From: Macrocybe gigantea
Taxonomy: Eukaryota > Basidiomycota > Agaricomycetes > Agaricales > Callistosporiaceae
Direction: 5' to 3'
Length of the DNA stretch: 35,151 bases
Assembly: GCA_011319805.1 (NCBI GenBank)
Contig: SJRY01000154.1
Location: 1-35,151 of the forward strand
Positions 6,504-24,609 of this stretch are shown piece by piece (position 1 is the first letter of the stretch; every line of letters begins with the position of its first letter). The notes beneath the pieces were generated by a model. That model had not been told where the DNA came from and did not search any database. It worked only from the letters and a program-made list of their open reading frames with translations. Both the position numbers and the translations under genes were made by a program.

Positions 6504-7816
6504 GGTTTGCAGATTGCGTCTCTTCTGTTCGTTTTTTTTCACCCTGACTTTGTGTGGTTATTTGTATGCGTAGTGAGGGAATAATACGTGTCTTGACCAA
6601 CGTTAGTGCCTCTGGAGCATGGCAGATCTCCATCGAAAAGGCAAAAGGCAATACAGGTAAACCTTTCAGTCTTTGATCTGCATTTTTTTCGTTCGTCTGA
6701 TTTGTGGCTGTTGGGCGTAGCGTATATCAAGAATGGATGAGGATACGGGTGCGTTTGTGGGGAAGGGAAGATGAAATGCGGTGGTGTTTCTCGGAGAACT
6801 TTGTGGACATTGTCGTAGCCGCGTCACGATGCACTGCACGCGGATTGGCCAAGCGGCGGAATTCATAGTCACGCTGAAGATGCTGTCGGCGTGCCCGCGA
6901 CTCCTGCTCGGCATGGGCGAACAGGCAGGCGTCCAGAGATGACCAGGGGACTTCAAAAAGAACAAGAACTCGCCCCCGTTCGTGCGGCGACACCGTAGCT
7001 TTCCACGCGTTCGCGTTGGGGGATTGAAGACGATTCAAAGCATGGTCGGCTTTGTTCCGCCGCTCTTGCTCTTGCAAGCTTGGCAAGCGCGGTCAAGATA
7101 CGCGCGAGGGCAAAGCGAGAAGGCGAGAGATGACGCGTGTAGTCTGCAGGTACATCGTTCCCTGCTTTGTCTGGCGGTCATTCGTCTGATCTCAAATGTG
7201 ATGTGTTTCGCGTGCCACGGAACGGAACAGCGTCGCGTCGAGACAGGGAAACGGTCCTGCACGGTCGCGCAAACAAAAAAATGTAGCACTATCGCGCCTA
7301 CGGCGATGAAGTCTGCAAATGACTCTTTTCCTTGAATTCTAGGAAAATGTTCCTGGTTCTACGTTGAGAGCAAGGCAGGAAGATGAAATGTCACAAGACC
7401 CACCGGTATTATTCTTTCACTTTGCTTCATTCCATCGCGACGCTGATCCATAAGATATATCCCAGCACCGATGCACGTCCTGCAAAATGACGCATATTTG
7501 GACTTTGCGTTACATTCCTCAATGAGCACGTGATCCAATTCCTCCCACTGCCTCAAAAGGAAAGATCGCCTGCTCAAGATTCTTACCACAATCTCTTCGT
7601 CTAACCGACTTGTTACTCGCTTTGCGAACTGCATGCAACTGATCTTTGACTAACTGCAAACTCAACTGACAATATGAAACCACTTCTCTGAATTGGATGT
7701 CGTCCTTTGACGATGCCACTGAAAGGCAAGTGTTTTTCCCCCAACTTTGAAACATACGCGAACAGTGGGGGCTCACGAAAATTAACCACCTACTCAGCTT
7801 CGACTTCAGTCTATTC
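6504..7816. other. Gap without an identified gene; weak minus-strand coding signal
   Basis: There are 1.3 kb between two plus-strand genes. The best candidate is on the minus strand: an ATG near 7184 opens MYLQTTRVISRLLALPSRVS, which resembles a mitochondrial presequence. After a stop or frame change a basic, open frame of about 119 residues runs from 7086 to 6727 (PHERGRVLVLFEVPW, AHAEQESRARRQHLQRDYEF). I do not recognise it and cannot show that it is a gene. From 7330 to 7816 I see only short chance frames and the promoter of the next gene. Confidence 0.25.
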
Positions 7817-9624
7817 ATGGCAACTCCCACTACGCCAGCGCCTACTCCTACTAGCGCAAGCCCTCAGGACGCGTGCAAGAAACGAGGAGAGAAGCGCAAG
7901 TGGCCATTTTTCAACTCGATCTCTGCCTCCGCGGAGGAGCATCCTAGGAAACGCCGCAGGACGGCGTCCAACGATGCAGAGCGTACTCCAGAAGTGCAGA
8001 CGAGGCGCACACCGCCCGTGAGGTGAGCTTTTCCTTCGCTCAGCCTCCGTTGTCGTTGTTATTTATTCGCGCGTCTGCAGTACGGGGATCGGTTCATTCC
8101 ACGCGTCGTGTCTAGCGTTCCTCTCAATGTTCGACTATCTGAGGAGATCGGACGCTTGCGCGAGCGATGGGATTGATTGGGGAAGAAACTAGGATGTACG
8201 ATTTTTCAAGAGTGCCACCGCCTCGGCCGTCATCCGTCGTGCCACCCGTTCTGAAACCACTGATCCAAGAAGCCCTTCGACCGTCCCCTCCACCGAAGAA
8301 CCCGGCTTCTGTTGTCGCTAACCTTGGCTGGACCCGAAAACCGGCATGCGAGCTCGACCTGGAAGGTCTCTCCGTCGGGCCGGACACTGATTTTCCGCTT
8401 AGTCACTCCAATTCTGGAGTCCTCGCCATTGCTGTAGAAGGAGACGAAATTCTACTTTCACGCAATCATGGAAATGAGTGCATAGGTCGCTCTACGACTC
8501 TCAATGGTACAATGCGGATTTGATCGAAGCCAGAGGTTTCGGCGGTGCCATCTATGCCCTGACATGGGGACGGAGCCAGCCATGGGACCGTTTTATCGCG
8601 GTCGGCACCGACAAGGCGTCGTGGAGATCTGGGACGAATCGTACACGATCTCTGACGAAGAGAATTTCTTCATGTTCAAGCCGTACATGGATCGCGTGGA
8701 CGTCGCGGTCGTGTGTCTGGATTGGCACGAGAATCTGTTGGCGTGGGCATGGAGAACGGACGGGTCTGCGTATATTCTTTCCGCATCGTTGAGAATGAGG
8801 TCAGGGGAGGTGCCAGAAAATTGGCAAGACTAGTCGGGGCGCTATCCTGAATGTCAAGTTCAACCCGGATGGCAGCATGCTCGCTGCCTCGGACTCGAAT
8901 GGCATAGTCAGAGTTTGGGACTATGCCACGAGCGAGTTGATCACCAAGCTGCGCCACGAAGACCAAGCGCCTATTCCGGCGCTCTCCTGGTGTCCCTGGC
9001 AAAAGGACCTTCTCGCGACGGGGACGCTTTTCCCGGACGGCGCCATCCGTGTCTGGTCTGTCTCAAAGCCTTCAAACGGCAGTCCCACTCGCAAACCGAA
9101 GCCAAAGATGCATTTGCCTCTGCATACGGAAGTCCTTGCAGTCTATTGGTCCCCTTATTCCAAGGAGCTCGCCAGCACGCACGGCTTCGCGTTCTGCCCG
9201 GAAGCAGCAAAGGGCCGGTCGTCAACGGTAGGCCCGCGGCGTCCTCCACAACCGCCAAAACCGTCCGAGGAAAACAACAAAAGAAACACATATCGTCTTT
9301 TTCCCCTCTTCCCGACATCCATCGCCCGGACTCGGAACCCAAGCCCGAAGTGACATGACGTATAAATGGAAAGACGCCGAGGATCCGCAGCTCCAGCACA
9401 ACATCGCGGTTCACGCGTACCCGTCCGGCAAACGTGTCTTCTCCATGAGGGTTCATGACTCTTCCCCTATGCACTCCTGTCTGGACCGGACGGGTGAATG
9501 TGTTTGGACTGTCGCGATTGATGAGGAACCCGAGCAGAGCGTCCAGATGTGGCATCTGTGGAAACAGCCCCCTCCTCCAAAGAAGACAATCGAGAAGTCA
9601 TTCGAAAATTGTATCATTCGATAA
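7817..9624 (+). CDS. APC/C activator, Cdc20/Cdh1 (fizzy) family, divergent
   Basis: WD40 co-activator that brings substrates to the anaphase-promoting complex ubiquitin ligase. Three hallmarks are visible: a C-box (YGDRFIPRV, about 8080-8105, the APC/C-binding site), a WD40 propeller, and a C-terminal Ile-Arg dipeptide (CIIR-stop at 9624), the tail that docks on the APC3 subunit. Blades include VGTDKGVVEIWDE, NPDGSMLAASDSNGIVRVWD, IPALSWCPWQKDLLATG, GAIRVWSV and EVLAVYWSPYSKELASTHG; the last two match the Cdc20 signatures LAWCPWQ..LATG and SPHYKELISGHG. The short basic N-terminus (KRKW, PRKRRRT) lacks a destruction box that I can see. At least four frame breaks (about 8030, 8165, 8485, 8612) each need one extra base. 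It diverges from standard Cdc20 and Cdh1 and may be a meiosis-specific Ama1-like form, which is inference. Confidence 0.87.
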
Positions 9625-10335
9625 TCTCGAATTTGATGAACGGCGGACATGTGCTTTTCTGATTTATCGATTTTTTTTTATTTTCTTTTCTATCGCTCGG
9701 GATAGAATATGTATGTAGGTAGGTATGCGGCTCTGTTTATTTCTAGCATTTCCATCTCATCTAGCTCTTAGTCAAAGTAACGTAGACGTAGTATTATACA
9801 ATTTGTACAAGTGACTCTCCAATTAATTTTGCCGTTAGCTGAAGAGACCCAGTTCATGAATGTCATACTAACCCTACACATCGGACACCCCACTTTTTGG
9901 ACAGTCACACCGCGACTTGTGGTTTATTCGAACTGAGCGACCACTCATAGTCCCACGTCCGCGCACTGCTATTTTTTAATTTGAAACATGATATAAAGTC
10001 CGACACAGCAGTTATTGGCAAGCCTAACGAGCAGCAATTTCTGCGGCTTTTAACAAAAGCACATTCTGATCAAAAATAGTATGCAGGAAGAGTTTATATG
10101 ACATGTTAGGCTCTGCCTAGGAAGTACGGTACCAATTGAGTCAAGTTTGCGCAAGATATTTGTGGTGTTCGCAAAGTGCAGGGTAGTATTTCCAATCCTA
10201 CACCTGAGCTGCATGTATTTTGACGAATTTGGAATTGTGGGTCCCGGGCCTTATTGATTCAACGTTCCACAGCTTTAGCCGCCTGGCTGGCGGCTACTGC
10301 CATCTCACCCTTTCTTCTCTACTAGTGCCTCAGAT
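9625..10335. other. Intergenic, A+T-rich, no gene seen
   Basis: About 700 bases with many stops in all frames. The first part is the 3' region of the APC/C activator gene. The last 150 bases are the promoter of the next plus-strand gene and hold the motif listed separately. Confidence 0.6.
10225..10245 (+). promoter_or_regulatory. Upstream element shared by two paralogues (copy A)
   Basis: The 21 bases GAATTTGGAATTGTGGGTCCC match 18 of 21 positions with a stretch upstream of the second family member at 22914-22934. Copy A ends 91 bases before its ATG and copy B 62 bases before its own. It may be a regulatory site or retained leader sequence from the duplication. Confidence 0.45.
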
Positions 10336-11478
10336 ATGCCAGAGTCTTCCGTGCTCCGTATAGGACTCGAGTGCGTCCAAAACGTTGCCATTTTCCCTCT
10401 ATGGTGCATCATCAAGCTCCTCATACTGTGTTGCGTCTCGTCGACGCATACGGTCAGAACAACACGTATGTACCACCACGTCTTATTTCCGAACGACGCT
10501 GTGGCAGCATTCCTATGGTGCAGCTTTTTGGAAATGATCGATCCCGAGTTTCCCGAAGACCGTTTCGTGAAGAAAGTCCTGTTCCTCAAGTTCAAACGTC
10601 AACAACACGAGGTCATCGTCGTGCAAATCTGGAATGGAAAGACGAATGCCCATGAAGGCTGGTTGAGGCTAGAACGTGCCGGGGAAGATGTGCGACGGAA
10701 TGCGAAACCGTGGCGGACTGAGGATCAAAGAGAGCAACCTGGCTCCAGCGGCAGCTTCGGATACAGCAGACTGCCAGAAAACAGAGTGGCGGGAACGTAC
10801 AATCCAGACCGCTATAAGAACAGTCAAGCTGTCATCGTCTCGACCATCACGTTCACAGGAAACACCATCCCCACGCTAGCCGATCTCGTTCTGGCGACAA
10901 GAGCAGTATCCAACATGTATAAACGTCCTCCACCGTTCACTTTCTACGAGCACTGGTTTACCGACTCGATCCTAGCAATCCTTGAGCATGTGGCCGGTCC
11001 ATCGAATTACAGAGTGGAATTCCGTCCCGGATGGGTCAAACGATTTCCCAAAGGCAAAGGCAAAAGGCTCAGCCAATTCAGTAAGGTCTGGGCTGGTCTG
11101 CCGGTCGATGTACCGGACGCGCCGATTCTGCAGGATCTGGTCAGAGAATTTAGAGCACAGAAGGCGAAGTACCAGAATCACGTGAGTCTACTGTTACATC
11201 GCGAACCGCCCTTCGAATTGATGTTTTATTTTGTGGATACTTGAATAAAGTGCAATGCGGTAGAGGAAGAGAGGAGAAAAGAAGAAGAAGAAATACTACG
11301 CCCGCTTTTGGCTCAGATAGCTGAGCGCGTTAAGATCATCGCCGAACGTACGCAGGTGATTGCTATGCTCGAAGAGCAGAAGAGGCTCGCGGCTCAACTC
11401 AAGGCTCTGGAGGCGATGCGTCTGAGCGGGGATGAGGGCGCAATGCGTGCAATTTTAGAGGAAAACCGAGTAGCATGA
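10336..11478 (+). CDS. Unnamed fungal family protein, copy A (predicted permuted papain-like fold, Cys lost)
   Basis: No characterised function known to me. The paralogue at 22996-24609 supports the model: both have an N-terminal hydrophobic segment (here VAIFPLWCIIKLLILCC), then VKKVLFLKFKRQQHEVIVVQIW, GWLRLER, NTIPTLADLVLATRAV, WFTDSILAILEHVAGP and GKRLSQFS. The pattern of a His before a beta-strand (QHE-VIVV) and, about 120 residues later, a residue opening a long helix resembles circularly permuted papain-like proteins (LRAT, PPPDE); this is inference. Where copy B has Cys-Tyr-Trp-Phe, this copy has Glu-His-Trp-Phe, so a Cys nucleophile would be missing. An intron at 11182-11250 (GTGAGT...AAAG) leads to a last exon coding a Glu/Arg/Lys-rich helix, likely a coiled coil, ending ILEENRVA. 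ATG 10336 is chosen because the N-terminal helix aligns with copy B. Confidence 0.75.
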
Positions 11479-19229: not shown

Positions 19230-20192
19230 ATGAAACTCACCTTTTATTCCTTCGTCTTCGTCGCCGCCGTCGCGACTGTCCTGGTCGCCGCCTCGCCCGC
19301 GCCCGTCGCCGAACCCGACGGCAATCTCGTCTTCCTCAAAGAGCGCGACATCGAGGAAACCCCAGTGCTCGTCGTGCGGTCGAAAGCGGGCAGGGGGTTC
19401 AAGAAATTCCTGGGTGGCCTCGGCCACTTCCTCGGCTTTCGACGCGACGTCGACGAGGACCTTCTGCTGTCTGCTCGCGAGAAGACGGTACCGAGATCCT
19501 TGCCGCACGGTCCAAGGCCGGTCGAGGCTTCAAGAAGTTCTTGGGTGGTTTGGGACATTTCTTGGGTTTCCGACGAGATAATGTGTAAGGCATTTTATTT
19601 CAGTCCCGGACACCATGCAGACAGAATTAATGCTCTATTTTTTTTCTATAGTGCTTCTGATCCATCGATGCTCACGACGCGTGGAGAGCCTCAAGATGAA
19701 ATGCTTTCAGTCCGTGACCAGGAGGGCACGACCCTATCTGCTCGCGAGGAGGATTTGGAGCTCGATTTAGTTGAACGTGATCTAGACGTCATGGATCCTC
19801 TCATAGTGCGCGATTTTGACGGTTCAGAAGACCTCGTAGAGAGGGACCTGGACGTCGTGGATGATCTGGTCGAGCGGGACCTCGACGCCGAGGAATATCT
19901 CCTTGAGCGTGACCTGGACTTCGATGAAGACCTCGCCGAGCGTGATTTAGATTTCACGGACGAGCTGGTTGAGCGTGATTTTGACATCACTGGAGATCTG
20001 GTCGAGCGGGACCTGGATACCATGGATGCGCTTGTCGAACGGGGCCTCGAGAGTTCGGACGACTTCGTCGATTTGGTCGAGCGCGACTTGGACCTAGTCG
20101 GTCCACTGGTGGAGAGGGACGTTGATGTCCCCGAACCGTTGGCTGCGCGAGGCATTGAGCCTCAGCCACTGGATGCACGTAGTCTTGCATGA
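19230..20192 (+). CDS. Secreted repeat peptide precursor with two identical cationic peptides and an acidic repeat tail
   Basis: Not a family I can name. ATG 19230 opens a signal peptide (MKLTFYSFVFVAAVATVLVA) followed by PAPVAEPDG. Two copies of a 24-residue cationic segment with core GFKKFLGGLGHFLGF follow (19377-19448 and 19508-19579), each preceded by a single Arg and ending in Arg-Arg-Asp, a Kex2-type site. Exon 1 ends at 19584; an intron at 19585-19653 (GTAAGG...CTATAG) leads to exon 2, which encodes LTTRGEPQDEM and then about eleven 11-residue units of the form LVERDLDxxDD to the stop at 20192. The two cationic copies lie 131 bases apart, one short of a frame multiple, so a base is missing near 19480-19485. 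The build (signal, cationic cores, dibasic sites, acidic spacers) suggests proteolytic release of an antimicrobial or surface-active peptide, or a repellent-like peptide. That role is inference. Confidence 0.82.
   Translation: MKLTFYSFVFVAAVATVLVAASPAPVAEPDGNLVFLKERDIEETPVLVVRSKAGRGFKKFLGGLGHFLGFRRDVDEDLLLSAREKTVPRSLPHGPRPVEASRSSWVVWDISWVSDEIMCKAFYFSPGHHADRINALFFFYSASDPSMLTTRGEPQDEMLSVRDQEGTTLSAREEDLELDLVERDLDVMDPLIVRDFDGSEDLVERDLDVVDDLVERDLDAEEYLLERDLDFDEDLAERDLDFTDELVERDFDITGDLVERDLDTMDALVERGLESSDDFVDLVERDLDLVGPLVERDVDVPEPLAARGIEPQPLDARSLA
19377..19579 (+). repeat. Twin cationic peptide units, protein-identical and synonymously diverged
   Basis: The units 19377-19448 and 19508-19579 each encode the same 24 residues, from Arg-Ser-Lys-Ala through GFKKFLGGLGHFLGF to Arg-Arg-Asp. 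By codon comparison 17 of 24 codons differ, all synonymously. Hydrophobic residues (Phe, Phe, Leu, Leu, Phe, Leu) are spaced as on one face of a helix, with Lys, Gly and His on the other. Confidence 0.9.
19767..20153 (+). repeat. 33-bp (11-residue) acidic tandem repeats
   Basis: About eleven degenerate units follow the pattern Leu-Val-Glu-Arg-Asp-Leu-Asp plus four variable, mostly acidic residues. One unit is lengthened (SSDDFVDLVERD) and the last ones fade into PLAARG and LDARSLA. Each unit carries one Arg after Glu or a small residue, so the block is strongly acidic. Confidence 0.9.
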
Positions 20193-21420: not shown

Positions 21421-21568
21421 TTTTCTATAGCACCTCAGATTCGTCGACACTCACGACGCGCGGAGAGCCTCAAGACGAGGTGCCTTCGATCCGTGGCCAG
21501 GAGAGGGTACGTTCTTATTTGCCGACGAGGAGGCTTTGGAGCTCGAATTTGGTTGAACGGAGGGATGT
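21421..21568 (+). pseudogene. Partial duplicate of exon 2 of the peptide precursor
   Basis: From the intron end TTCTATAG onward the sequence parallels 19646-19793: it encodes LTTRGEPQDEVPSIRGQE where the intact gene has LTTRGEPQDEMLSVRDQE, and ends in SNLVERRD where that gene has LDLVERDLD. Similarity stops at the first acidic repeat. The signal peptide, the cationic copies and the rest of the tail are absent, so this is a truncated copy. Between SIRGQE and LVER the reading frame drifts, consistent with decay or a missing base. Confidence 0.8.

Positions 21569-21657: not shown

Positions 21658-21684
<27 letters not shown>
21658..21684 (+). repeat. Microsatellite (CAA)x9
   Basis: Nine perfect CAA units lie just downstream of the exon-2 remnant and upstream of the small gene at 21813. 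They are not in any supported coding frame. Confidence 0.95.
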
Positions 21685-21685
<1 letters not shown>

Positions 21686-21812
21686 GTGAACCTACTGTAC
21701 TTGTTCACTTAAAAGTAGGCTTGAGACTCGCAATTTGATAACGTTCCTCAGGCCTATACACCAGTGCTTTCATACCGTCAACTGTAGACTCGACTCTGGA
21801 AACTACCAAGAA

Positions 21813-22995: not shown

Positions 22996-24609
22996 ATGAG
23001 GTCCCTCAGACTTCGCAAAGGGCTCAGGCGTATCCAAAGTGCTATCATCCTTCCTTTCAGGTTCCTGTCTGGAGCTGCCGCTGTGTTCTGGGCAATGGGT
23101 ACGGTTAACACACCAACAAAGGATCAGCTTTTTCCACAGTCCGAAATCACGGTCCCCTATTGGTATGATGTTCTGGAGTTGTTTGAGCCTGGCACCATCG
23201 AAAGCTGGCCATCGTGAAAAAAGTCGTATTCCTCAAGTTCAAGCTTCCGACGCAGCACGAGGCCATCATAGTGGAAATATGGATCGAGCTAAAGATAGTC
23301 GGAAGGGTTGGGTGCGAATAGAACGAAGCAGCGAGAACGTAAGATCGATAAAGGCTCAAGACACAGGTGAGTGAATAATTTGGAGTACATCTTTCTCCAT
23401 TTCATTTTACGTCCGTTCTTTCAGATGCTTCCGCCGCGGTATCATCTGCGGAGGAATTGGGGAGGCCAAGCACTCAGGGGGGCGCCCAGCTTTCTGAATC
23501 GTCTCCTGAGCGTCCGCGCCCAAAAAAATTTTTGTCTCGTTTCTCCCGTAGGCGCGATCGACTATCGGCGACAGAAGACGAAGTCCCGACTTCGGAAGCC
23601 GAGGCCAGCGACAGCGCCAGACCGCAGCCCGAGAGCAGGCACAGGCGGTTTCTCTCGAGTTTGTCCGTTTCGAGTGCTCGGCGCTCCTCTTCTGCATCAT
23701 TCGCCAGTGTCCAGTCGTCGTTGCAGAGAAACGATGAGGACTCGCAGACCAGTAATCCCGATAGTAGCAGTTCAAAACCGGATGCTGATGCAAAAGATAT
23801 CGTGCGAGATTGGTGCGATCCAGAGCACGACAGGAGGGTCCGAGACGCCATCGTCGCGACCATCAAATACAAGGGGGAAAATATTCCTACGCTGCCTGAT
23901 CTCATCCTCGCGGCCAACGCGGTGCATGGCGTAGAAACGCACTATCGTGTGTTTTCTCATCAGTGCTATTGGTTCGCAGACTCGATCTTGGCAATCCTTG
24001 AACATGTGGCTGGACCAGACAATTTCGACGTTGAATTCGTCTCGAAAAGACGTATTCCAGGCCTAAAACGCGAAGGCAAGAGGCTCAGTCAGTTCAGCGG
24101 ACGCTGGGTTGGCTTTAAAATTCACCAACGTGATGAGGAAGCTCTGAACAACTTGATTGAAGAATTCGGAACCTGGAAGCAGACTCACCAAGCCTTTGTG
24201 AGCGTGTCACTGTGTTATGGACCGCTTCCACTAATATGAACTTTCTGGAAAGTTAAACAGGGCGAAGGAAGAACAGCAGAAAAAAACCGAAGACATACAG
24301 CGCCCACTCATAGCACAGCTCTCTCAGAAGGACGAGGCGCTTTCCAAGAAGGACGAGGCGCTTTCCAAGAAGGACGAGGTGATTTCTAAGAAGGACGAGG
24401 TGATTTTCAAGCAGGGCGAGGAAATCTTGAAGAAGGACGAGGTCATTTCGCAGAAAGACGAAGTGATCTCGAAGAAGGATGAGGAGATTCTGAAGAAGGA
24501 CGAGGAGATTTCAAAGGCACACAGAATCATCGCGCAGCTCTTGGCCGAAAGAGAGGGCAGGCCAAACGCCACATCGTCCGCCGTCGTCGAGGGTTCATCG
24601 GCTGCTTGA
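22996..24609 (+). CDS. Unnamed fungal family protein, copy B (predicted permuted papain-like fold, heptad-repeat tail)
   Basis: Paralogue of 10336-11478. ATG 22996 starts a basic and hydrophobic N-terminus (GLRRIQSAIILPFRFLSG), then LFPQSEITVPYWYDVLELF, KKVVFLKFKLPTQHEAIIVE, KGWVRIERSSENVR, a Ser/Arg-rich insert absent from copy A (after the intron at about 23367-23424), NIPTLPDLILAANAVHG, SHQCYWFADSILAILEHVAG and GKRLSQFSGRW. His of TQHEAIIV and Cys of HQCYWF are the candidate catalytic pair of a permuted papain-like (LRAT/PPPDE-type) fold, which is inference from pattern only. After an intron near 24199-24261 the tail consists of nine seven-residue repeats (KDEVISK type) and ends EGSSAA. 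Two frame breaks (about 23212 and 23293) and one at the last splice junction each need one extra base. Confidence 0.75.
24328..24516 (+). repeat. Nine 21-bp repeats encoding a KDExISK heptad helix
   Basis: The 189 bases are exactly nine units of 21. Units read KDEALSK twice, KDEVISK, KDEVIFK, QGEEILK, KDEVISQ, KDEVISK, KDEEILK, KDEEISK. The constant Glu-Lys spacing of four residues favours a long, straight, charged helix. Confidence 0.93.

Follow-up and report, generated by a model that had tools for sequence, protein, structure and literature searches.

Gene Architecture at the Locus

The window, i.e., the whole stretch of DNA analysed, is contig C154 in its entirety (35,151 bases), one of 333 contigs of a 41.2 Mb assembly. 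Its forward strand harbors an open reading frame of 320 codons at 19230–20192, in agreement with the preliminary description of this DNA. The latter also placed two identical cationic segments (hereafter cores) in this single frame. Both cores exist and both are followed by Arg-Arg, but the second is read in another frame: its bases (19508–19579) translate into unrelated residues in the frame of the ORF. Thus, what the 320-codon frame itself encodes is a predicted signal peptide, a single cationic core and the acidic tail. The features of the locus, all on the forward strand, are the following:

19230..19292, + strand: predicted signal peptide, residues 1–21 (hydrophobic stretch and −3/−1 rule)
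19293..19379, + strand: short pro-segment with LKER (19335–19346) and LVVR (19368–19379) (translation, table of Arg residues)
19377..19448, + strand: core 1, RSKAGRGFKKFLGGLGHFLGFRRD; predicted released peptide at 19380–19445 before carboxypeptidase trimming (translation, comparison of the cores)
19449..19507, + strand: spacer with LSAR plus the opening three residues of LAAR; it contains the one-base frame change of this contig (translation, haplotype alignment)
19508..19579, + strand: core 2, the same peptide as core 1 in a different frame in this contig; predicted released peptide at 19511–19576 (translation)
19585..19651, + strand: predicted 67-nt intron, GTAAGG...CTATAG, across which the frame of core 2 continues in that of the tail (trial of donors and acceptors)
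19653..20189, + strand: acidic tail, 179 residues, with the stop codon at 20190–20192 (translation, table of Arg residues)
21421..21559, + strand: truncated tandem duplicate of the end of the intron and the beginning of the tail (also on the contig C295, see below)

The signal peptide assumed in the preliminary description is predicted here as well, from a hydrophobic N-terminus (its best 15-residue Kyte–Doolittle window being SFVFVAAVATVLVAA) with four −3/−1 sites, the last of them VAA|SPA. The pro-segment begins with the run SP-AP-VA-EP (19293–19316), an XP/XA series which resembles STE13 substrates and does not adjoin a core.

Three of the eight donor/acceptor pairs tried downstream of core 2 preserve the tail frame, removing 19, 40 or 67 nt; the 67-nt intron was chosen because of its length and its direct read into the tail. 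Since this predicted GT-AG intron links the frame of core 2 to that of the tail, core 2 and the tail would go together, and the sole misfit left in the gene model would be the one-base frame change between the cores in the window contig. Inspection by eye revealed between the cores neither a GT-AG pair of the usual length giving the needed shift nor a slippery heptamer of the kind expected for programmed frameshifting.

The Second Haplotype and the Integrity of the Gene

Positions 1–21700 of the window match another contig, C295, at 99.3% (78 substitutions and 39 indels); judging from this sequence, C295 represents the other haplotype of the locus. The match ends at about 21670–21700, beside a CAA repeat; past about 21700, no megablast match to C295 was obtained, 60,000 bases of the latter being covered. 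C295 has the spacer and both cores (from GFKKF on) in one frame, but its signal-peptide frame breaks off early in core 1, among its first residues, so an unbroken coding frame is found in neither contig. The coding pieces contain nine substitutions between the haplotypes. The two in the cores are synonymous; three of the seven outside the cores are nonsynonymous, and none of these destroys an LxxR motif, a conspicuous element of the precursor described below.

Taken at face value, a frame break in each assembled allele, at different places, together with a truncated tandem copy downstream, could mean that the gene is decaying, i.e., that both alleles are truly broken and give rise to no precursor. 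Still, the WD40 gene of the same window (8050–9750) is likewise split into several frames by one-base differences (of its three pieces scanned against Pfam, one hit WD40 families and the other two gave no match), while C295 carries it as one 526-residue frame, suggesting that bases were lost during the assembly. Hence, the frame break between the cores is likely an assembly error as well. In addition, both cores and all 16 LxxR sites of the tail are intact at the protein level, which argues against decay, and we regard a decaying gene as very unlikely.

The truncated copy is found in both haplotypes (in C295, near 6862–7000) and matches positions 19642–19777 at 78–79%, each haplotype being measured against the other; the stretch before it bears no significant trace of the cores. 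A search of the genome with the signal and pro-segment returned only the two alleles, and a search with the tail returned the two alleles plus the truncated copy on both.

Conservation and Physical Properties of the Twin Cores

The core GFKKFLGGLGHFLGF occurs twice, with Arg-Arg directly after each copy. Over the stretch RSKAGRGFKKFLGGLGHFLGFRRD, the two copies are the same at 24/24 residues, although they differ at 17/24 codons and 20/72 bases, all of these differences being synonymous. The path-averaged pS between the cores amounts to 0.97, and the pN of 0.04 arises from multi-step paths between synonymous codons. The binomial probability of such an identity by chance is 1.3e-12 to 1.9e-12, depending on the site counts, and in a simulation the peptide was kept in 0 of 200,000 sequences. 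Because all 20 base differences are synonymous and the residues identical, the core peptide itself is under selection at the protein level. The eight residues preceding the cores (EETPVLVV and DGTEILAA) coincide at only 2/8 positions versus 24/24 within the cores; therefore, the conserved block starts at the predicted cut site. Recent gene conversion was considered as a cause of the core identity and rejected, the silent-site divergence between the copies being too high.

According to calculation and modelling, the 20-residue core has a charge of +4 and, as a helix, displays Phe and Leu on one face and Lys and Gly on the other. The preliminary description had proposed that the helix and the hydrophobic moment be predicted, and both predictions turned out in favor of an amphipathic helix: the moment of the 20-mer is 0.495 at 100 degrees, a value reached in 0.82% of 20,000 shuffles, vs. 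0.047 at 170 degrees (strand), and the AlphaFold model of a 43-residue piece, built from one sequence, comprises a single helix at residues 14–42 with a mean pLDDT of 82. The charge of +4 and the moment of 0.495 are the combination expected of a cationic amphipathic antimicrobial peptide.

The Acidic Tail as a Row of LxxR Motifs

The tail was initially described as an acidic repeat. It is indeed acidic, with 62 Asp and Glu against 16 basic residues, all of them Arg (0 Lys), giving a net charge of −46, and it is repeated; yet it is more than an acidic mask, since it represents a row of LxxR motifs. All 16 tail Arg have Leu at −3, i.e., they stand in the extended Kex2 motif, while the intervening residues vary, a pattern absent from the preliminary description. 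The repeat consists of twelve units of 11 residues (DLDxxDxLVER-like), one of 14 and three of 10, and ends in a C-terminal SLA.

In the columns from −8 to +3 around the 16 tail Arg (n = 12), only Leu at −3 and the Arg itself are invariant. The next-strictest columns are Asp at −8 (75%) and Asp at +1 and +3 (69% each), and positions −7 to −4 accommodate 7 to 10 different residues. The invariant Leu is encoded by six codons and the Arg by five, and the two residues between them form nine different pairs. The binomial probability of the tail pattern, 2e-13, overstates the independence of the 16 sites, because they arose for the most part from a single repeated unit; the codon pattern carries more weight. 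Between the tail units, pN/pS amounts to 0.46, vs. no amino-acid difference between the cores.

The motif is also encountered outside the 11-residue register, as LKER and LVVR in the pro-segment and as LSAR and LAAR in the spacer, so that an LxxR stands before each core (LVVR and LAAR, respectively). In the coding pieces of the window, the only Arg residues outside LxxR are the internal Arg of each core (SKAGR|GF) and the latter Arg of each Arg-Arg.

A scan for such rows of LxxR covered 295,151 bases (the window, 60 kb of C295 and 20 sampled 10-kb stretches), where 2,070 of the 2,493 frames were scoreable. Only the two alleles of this gene stood out, at 1.2e-7, the next frame being at 1.2e-3; since the sample makes up <1% of the genome, the scan tells little about the frequency of precursors of this class.

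Putative Processing by Kexin

Three features are directly observed: the twin cores, the conservation of these at the protein level and the pattern of LxxR motifs. From them, we propose a secreted precursor which would be cut by kexin after LxxR and Arg-Arg into a twin cationic amphipathic peptide and about sixteen mostly acidic fragments, the peptide likely acting on membranes or surfaces outside the cell. On the sequence evidence, this scheme appears reasonably probable. The predicted signal peptide would route the precursor into the secretory pathway, where the uncut tail, by virtue of its net charge of −46, would offset the cationic cores and likely keep them quiet inside the producer. Golgi kexin would then cut after LVVR and LAAR before the cores, after the closing Arg-Arg and at each LxxR of the tail, as the motif suggests. 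By analogy with the known pathway, a Kex1-type carboxypeptidase would remove Arg-Arg, leaving SKAGRGFKKFLGGLGHFLGF with a charge of +4. Eventually, the 20-residue peptide, an amphipathic helix by calculation and modelling, may operate at a membrane or at the cell surface. The Kex2-like release put forward in the preliminary description is therefore retained in part: Arg-Arg closes each core, but the N-terminal cut is predicted at a single Arg (LVVR, LAAR) and not at a dibasic site.

The genome encodes a kexin of its own, with S8 and P domains and with Kexin as the best PDB match (E 3.5e-69); the presence of a kexin is one of the traits expected of a KEP-producing genome. Together with the assembly size of 41.2 Mb and the predicted short intron, this kexin points to a fungal origin of the DNA, possibly in a mushroom-type basidiomycete. 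Kexin-type P domains were located at three places, two of them about 3 kb apart on contig C228 (429414 and 432396) and one on contig C68 (427946), with an S8 domain near C228:432396 and near C68:427946. From their spacing in the sequence, the pair on C228 likely represents tandem kexin genes.

The published preferences of the enzyme fit the motif in several respects. LXXR was strongly preferred by yeast Kex2 in a pentapeptide library assayed in yeast, as stated in the available text of PMC6258133. In the part of PMC8528282 at hand, LxxR appears as the expanded Kex2 motif and Glu as one of the five next-best residues at P2 (here, P2 is Glu at 10/16 tail sites), and Asp at P3 is given as unfavorable, which concerns 1/16 tail sites. 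Furthermore, mushroom KEPs expressed in Pichia yielded products apparently cut after a single Arg (PMC9769878, as far as its accessible text goes). Several features may speak against the kexin-precursor reading, namely the broken frame in each contig, the lack of homologs in the protein searches described below, the Asp at P1′ in 11/16 tail sites, the single tail site LDAR with its Asp at P3, and the Arg outside LxxR which one of the three nonsynonymous haplotype differences adds to the C295 spacer.

Alternative Interpretations

The tail may have been conserved for a reason other than cleavage. It also displays a helical hydrophobic period, so its Leu and Arg could have been retained for structural reasons: the L..R pairs on an 11-residue period would form a long acidic helix pairing with the cationic cores, the tail would stay uncut and only the Arg-Arg sites would matter. 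This is compatible with the 11-residue units, with the hydrophobic periodicity calculated over 99 residues of the tail (0.39 and 0.48 at 98 and 65 degrees, respectively) and with the helix in the model of the tail, which is poor (mean pLDDT 62). A structural helix does not readily account for the preservation of LxxR in the 10- and 14-residue units and, off register, directly before both cores, nor for the lesser strictness of the other columns (Asp at −8 in 75%, at +1 and +3 in 69%); on balance, it seems unlikely. By number of units, the acidic 11-mers could be viewed as the main products, twelve of them facing two cores, which would then be leaders or by-products. Since the units drift between their anchors (pN/pS 0.46, with 7 to 10 residues at −7 to −4) and the cores remain unchanged, we give this idea very little credence, even less than gene decay.

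As for the twin peptide, its total conservation, glycines included, exceeds what a generic lytic helix needs, and this is a point against the membrane reading. The absence of any amino-acid change at saturated synonymous divergence would also fit a receptor ligand, i.e., the precursor and its processing may be as proposed with the peptide serving as a sequence-specific, pheromone- or hormone-like signal instead of a membrane agent; alpha-type pheromones are among the published KEPs (PMC6339444, as stated in its available text). At the same time, the charge and amphipathicity of the core are typical of membrane peptides, and it begins with SKAGRG, without the XA/XP (STE13) dipeptides described for alpha-pheromone precursors, so a signaling role is conceivable but rather doubtful. 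Alternatively, the freed peptides might assemble into a water-repellent coat on hyphal walls, like those of Rep1 of Ustilago maydis, a repeat precursor that Kex2 cuts into peptides forming amyloid-like fibrils on the surface, according to the accessible text of PMC8528282. Phe, Leu and Gly abound in the core, as would suit such a coat; however, there are only two copies per precursor and the pattern corresponds to a helix rather than a strand (0.495 at 100 vs. 0.047 at 170 degrees for the 20-mer), and a coat of this kind is distinctly unlikely. Release of a membrane- or surface-active twin peptide by kexin is the reading adopted in the comparisons below.

Comparison with Known Kexin-Processed Precursors

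In the text available from them, the KEP screens are defined by dibasic sites: KR, RR and then KK in PMC6339444; KR, KK, RK and RR in PMC7329392; and KR, RR, KK and RK in PMC9769878, where a second method consisted of RADAR repeats inspected by eye in secreted proteins of <300 residues. At least three repeats (or four fragments) between KR/RR/KK/RK are demanded, as worded in these sources. The coding pieces described here contain two RR and two KK (the latter inside the cores), 0 KR and 0 RK, and fall short of this count. With regard to other KEP traits, a hydrophobic N-terminus with −3/−1 sites is observed, and if the definition is widened to repeats between any kexin-recognizable sites, LxxR included, 16/16 tail Arg conform (as a motif only). 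Overall, the precursor would work like a KEP, yet it is not a KEP by the printed counts. As described in the accessible parts of PMC6339444, PMC7329392 and PMC9769878, KEPs share with it a predicted signal peptide, short repeats, kexin-type sites and a small, presumably secreted precursor, but have their repeats between dibasic sites, whereas here the repeats are marked by the monobasic LxxR.

Other known systems resemble it in part. In the known LxxR-cut protein, LxxR serves as a kexin motif, as proposed here, but there one N-terminal pro-domain is removed, whereas here LxxR recurs along the whole precursor. Ece1, the candidalysin precursor of Candida albicans, also combines many kexin sites with a freed amphipathic peptide; by description, on which alone the comparison is based (available text of PMC5784256), it possesses seven KR motifs and one active peptide, as opposed to two identical peptides predicted here, and no KR punctuates the present coding pieces. 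Rep1 resembles the proposed scheme in that Kex2 cuts short surface-active peptides from a repeat precursor, but it gives many, fibril-forming peptides (PMC8528282, as far as its available text goes), whereas the present precursor has an acidic tail and two cationic cores of helix type. The XA/XP dipeptides which follow the kexin site in alpha-pheromone precursors are not found: the cores begin with SK, and at the second position past the 16 tail sites only L, E, F, Q, V or I occurs, with no A or P.

We tentatively suggest, with less than even confidence, that some fungal precursors form a class in which monobasic LxxR replaces dibasic sites as the punctuation; this gene would be the first example seen, dibasic KEP catalogues would be blind to the class, and selection would act on the exact sequence of the twin peptide, beyond its amphipathicity. 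Only dibasic cuts are considered in two kingdom-wide KEP surveys and in the main method of a third study, which would therefore miss a precursor of this kind; as noted in the available text of PMC6339444, unusual Kex2 sites cannot be excluded for catalogues without KEPs. The LxxR precursor provides a rule for re-scanning fungal secretomes, i.e., a search for evenly spaced rows of LxxR behind a signal peptide. The twin peptide, in turn, has defined ends and bears the mark of within-gene selection at the protein level, and it is open to direct synthesis and testing.

Database Searches and Neighboring Genes

In line with the preliminary description, where no described family with this core was known, neither a relative nor a printed copy of the core was found, the fungal content of the protein database being uncontrolled. 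In particular, a protein search with the whole ORF scored 7,993 candidates with no match at E 0.1, and searches with the core region of the ORF and of the C295 frame (24 and 28 candidates, respectively) gave no match at E 10. Because of the uncontrolled fungal coverage, this absence of homologs is weak evidence. Neither the ORF nor the core 2 piece matched a Pfam family at E 1. The core strings were not found in a literature search, and among the matches listed for papers about LxxR, Kex2 and repeat precursors, none had a title or abstract opening that dealt with LxxR-punctuated precursors. A search of the PDB by sequence listed eight sequences at E 0.18 to 1.7, all of them proteases, some named HIV-1 protease; these were judged to be chance matches.

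DUF3328, expected near dikaritin-type RiPP precursors, was not among the Pfam matches of the 16 window stretches scanned, two of which are the gene's own. Elsewhere in the window, 10279–11241 and 23379–24239 encode two related proteins with the blocks IPTLxDLxLA and DSILAILEHVAGP common to both and with Pfam matches only below the curated cut-offs. The stretch 24235–24609 encodes a piece of a low-complexity repeat protein of the KKDEVISKKDE type.
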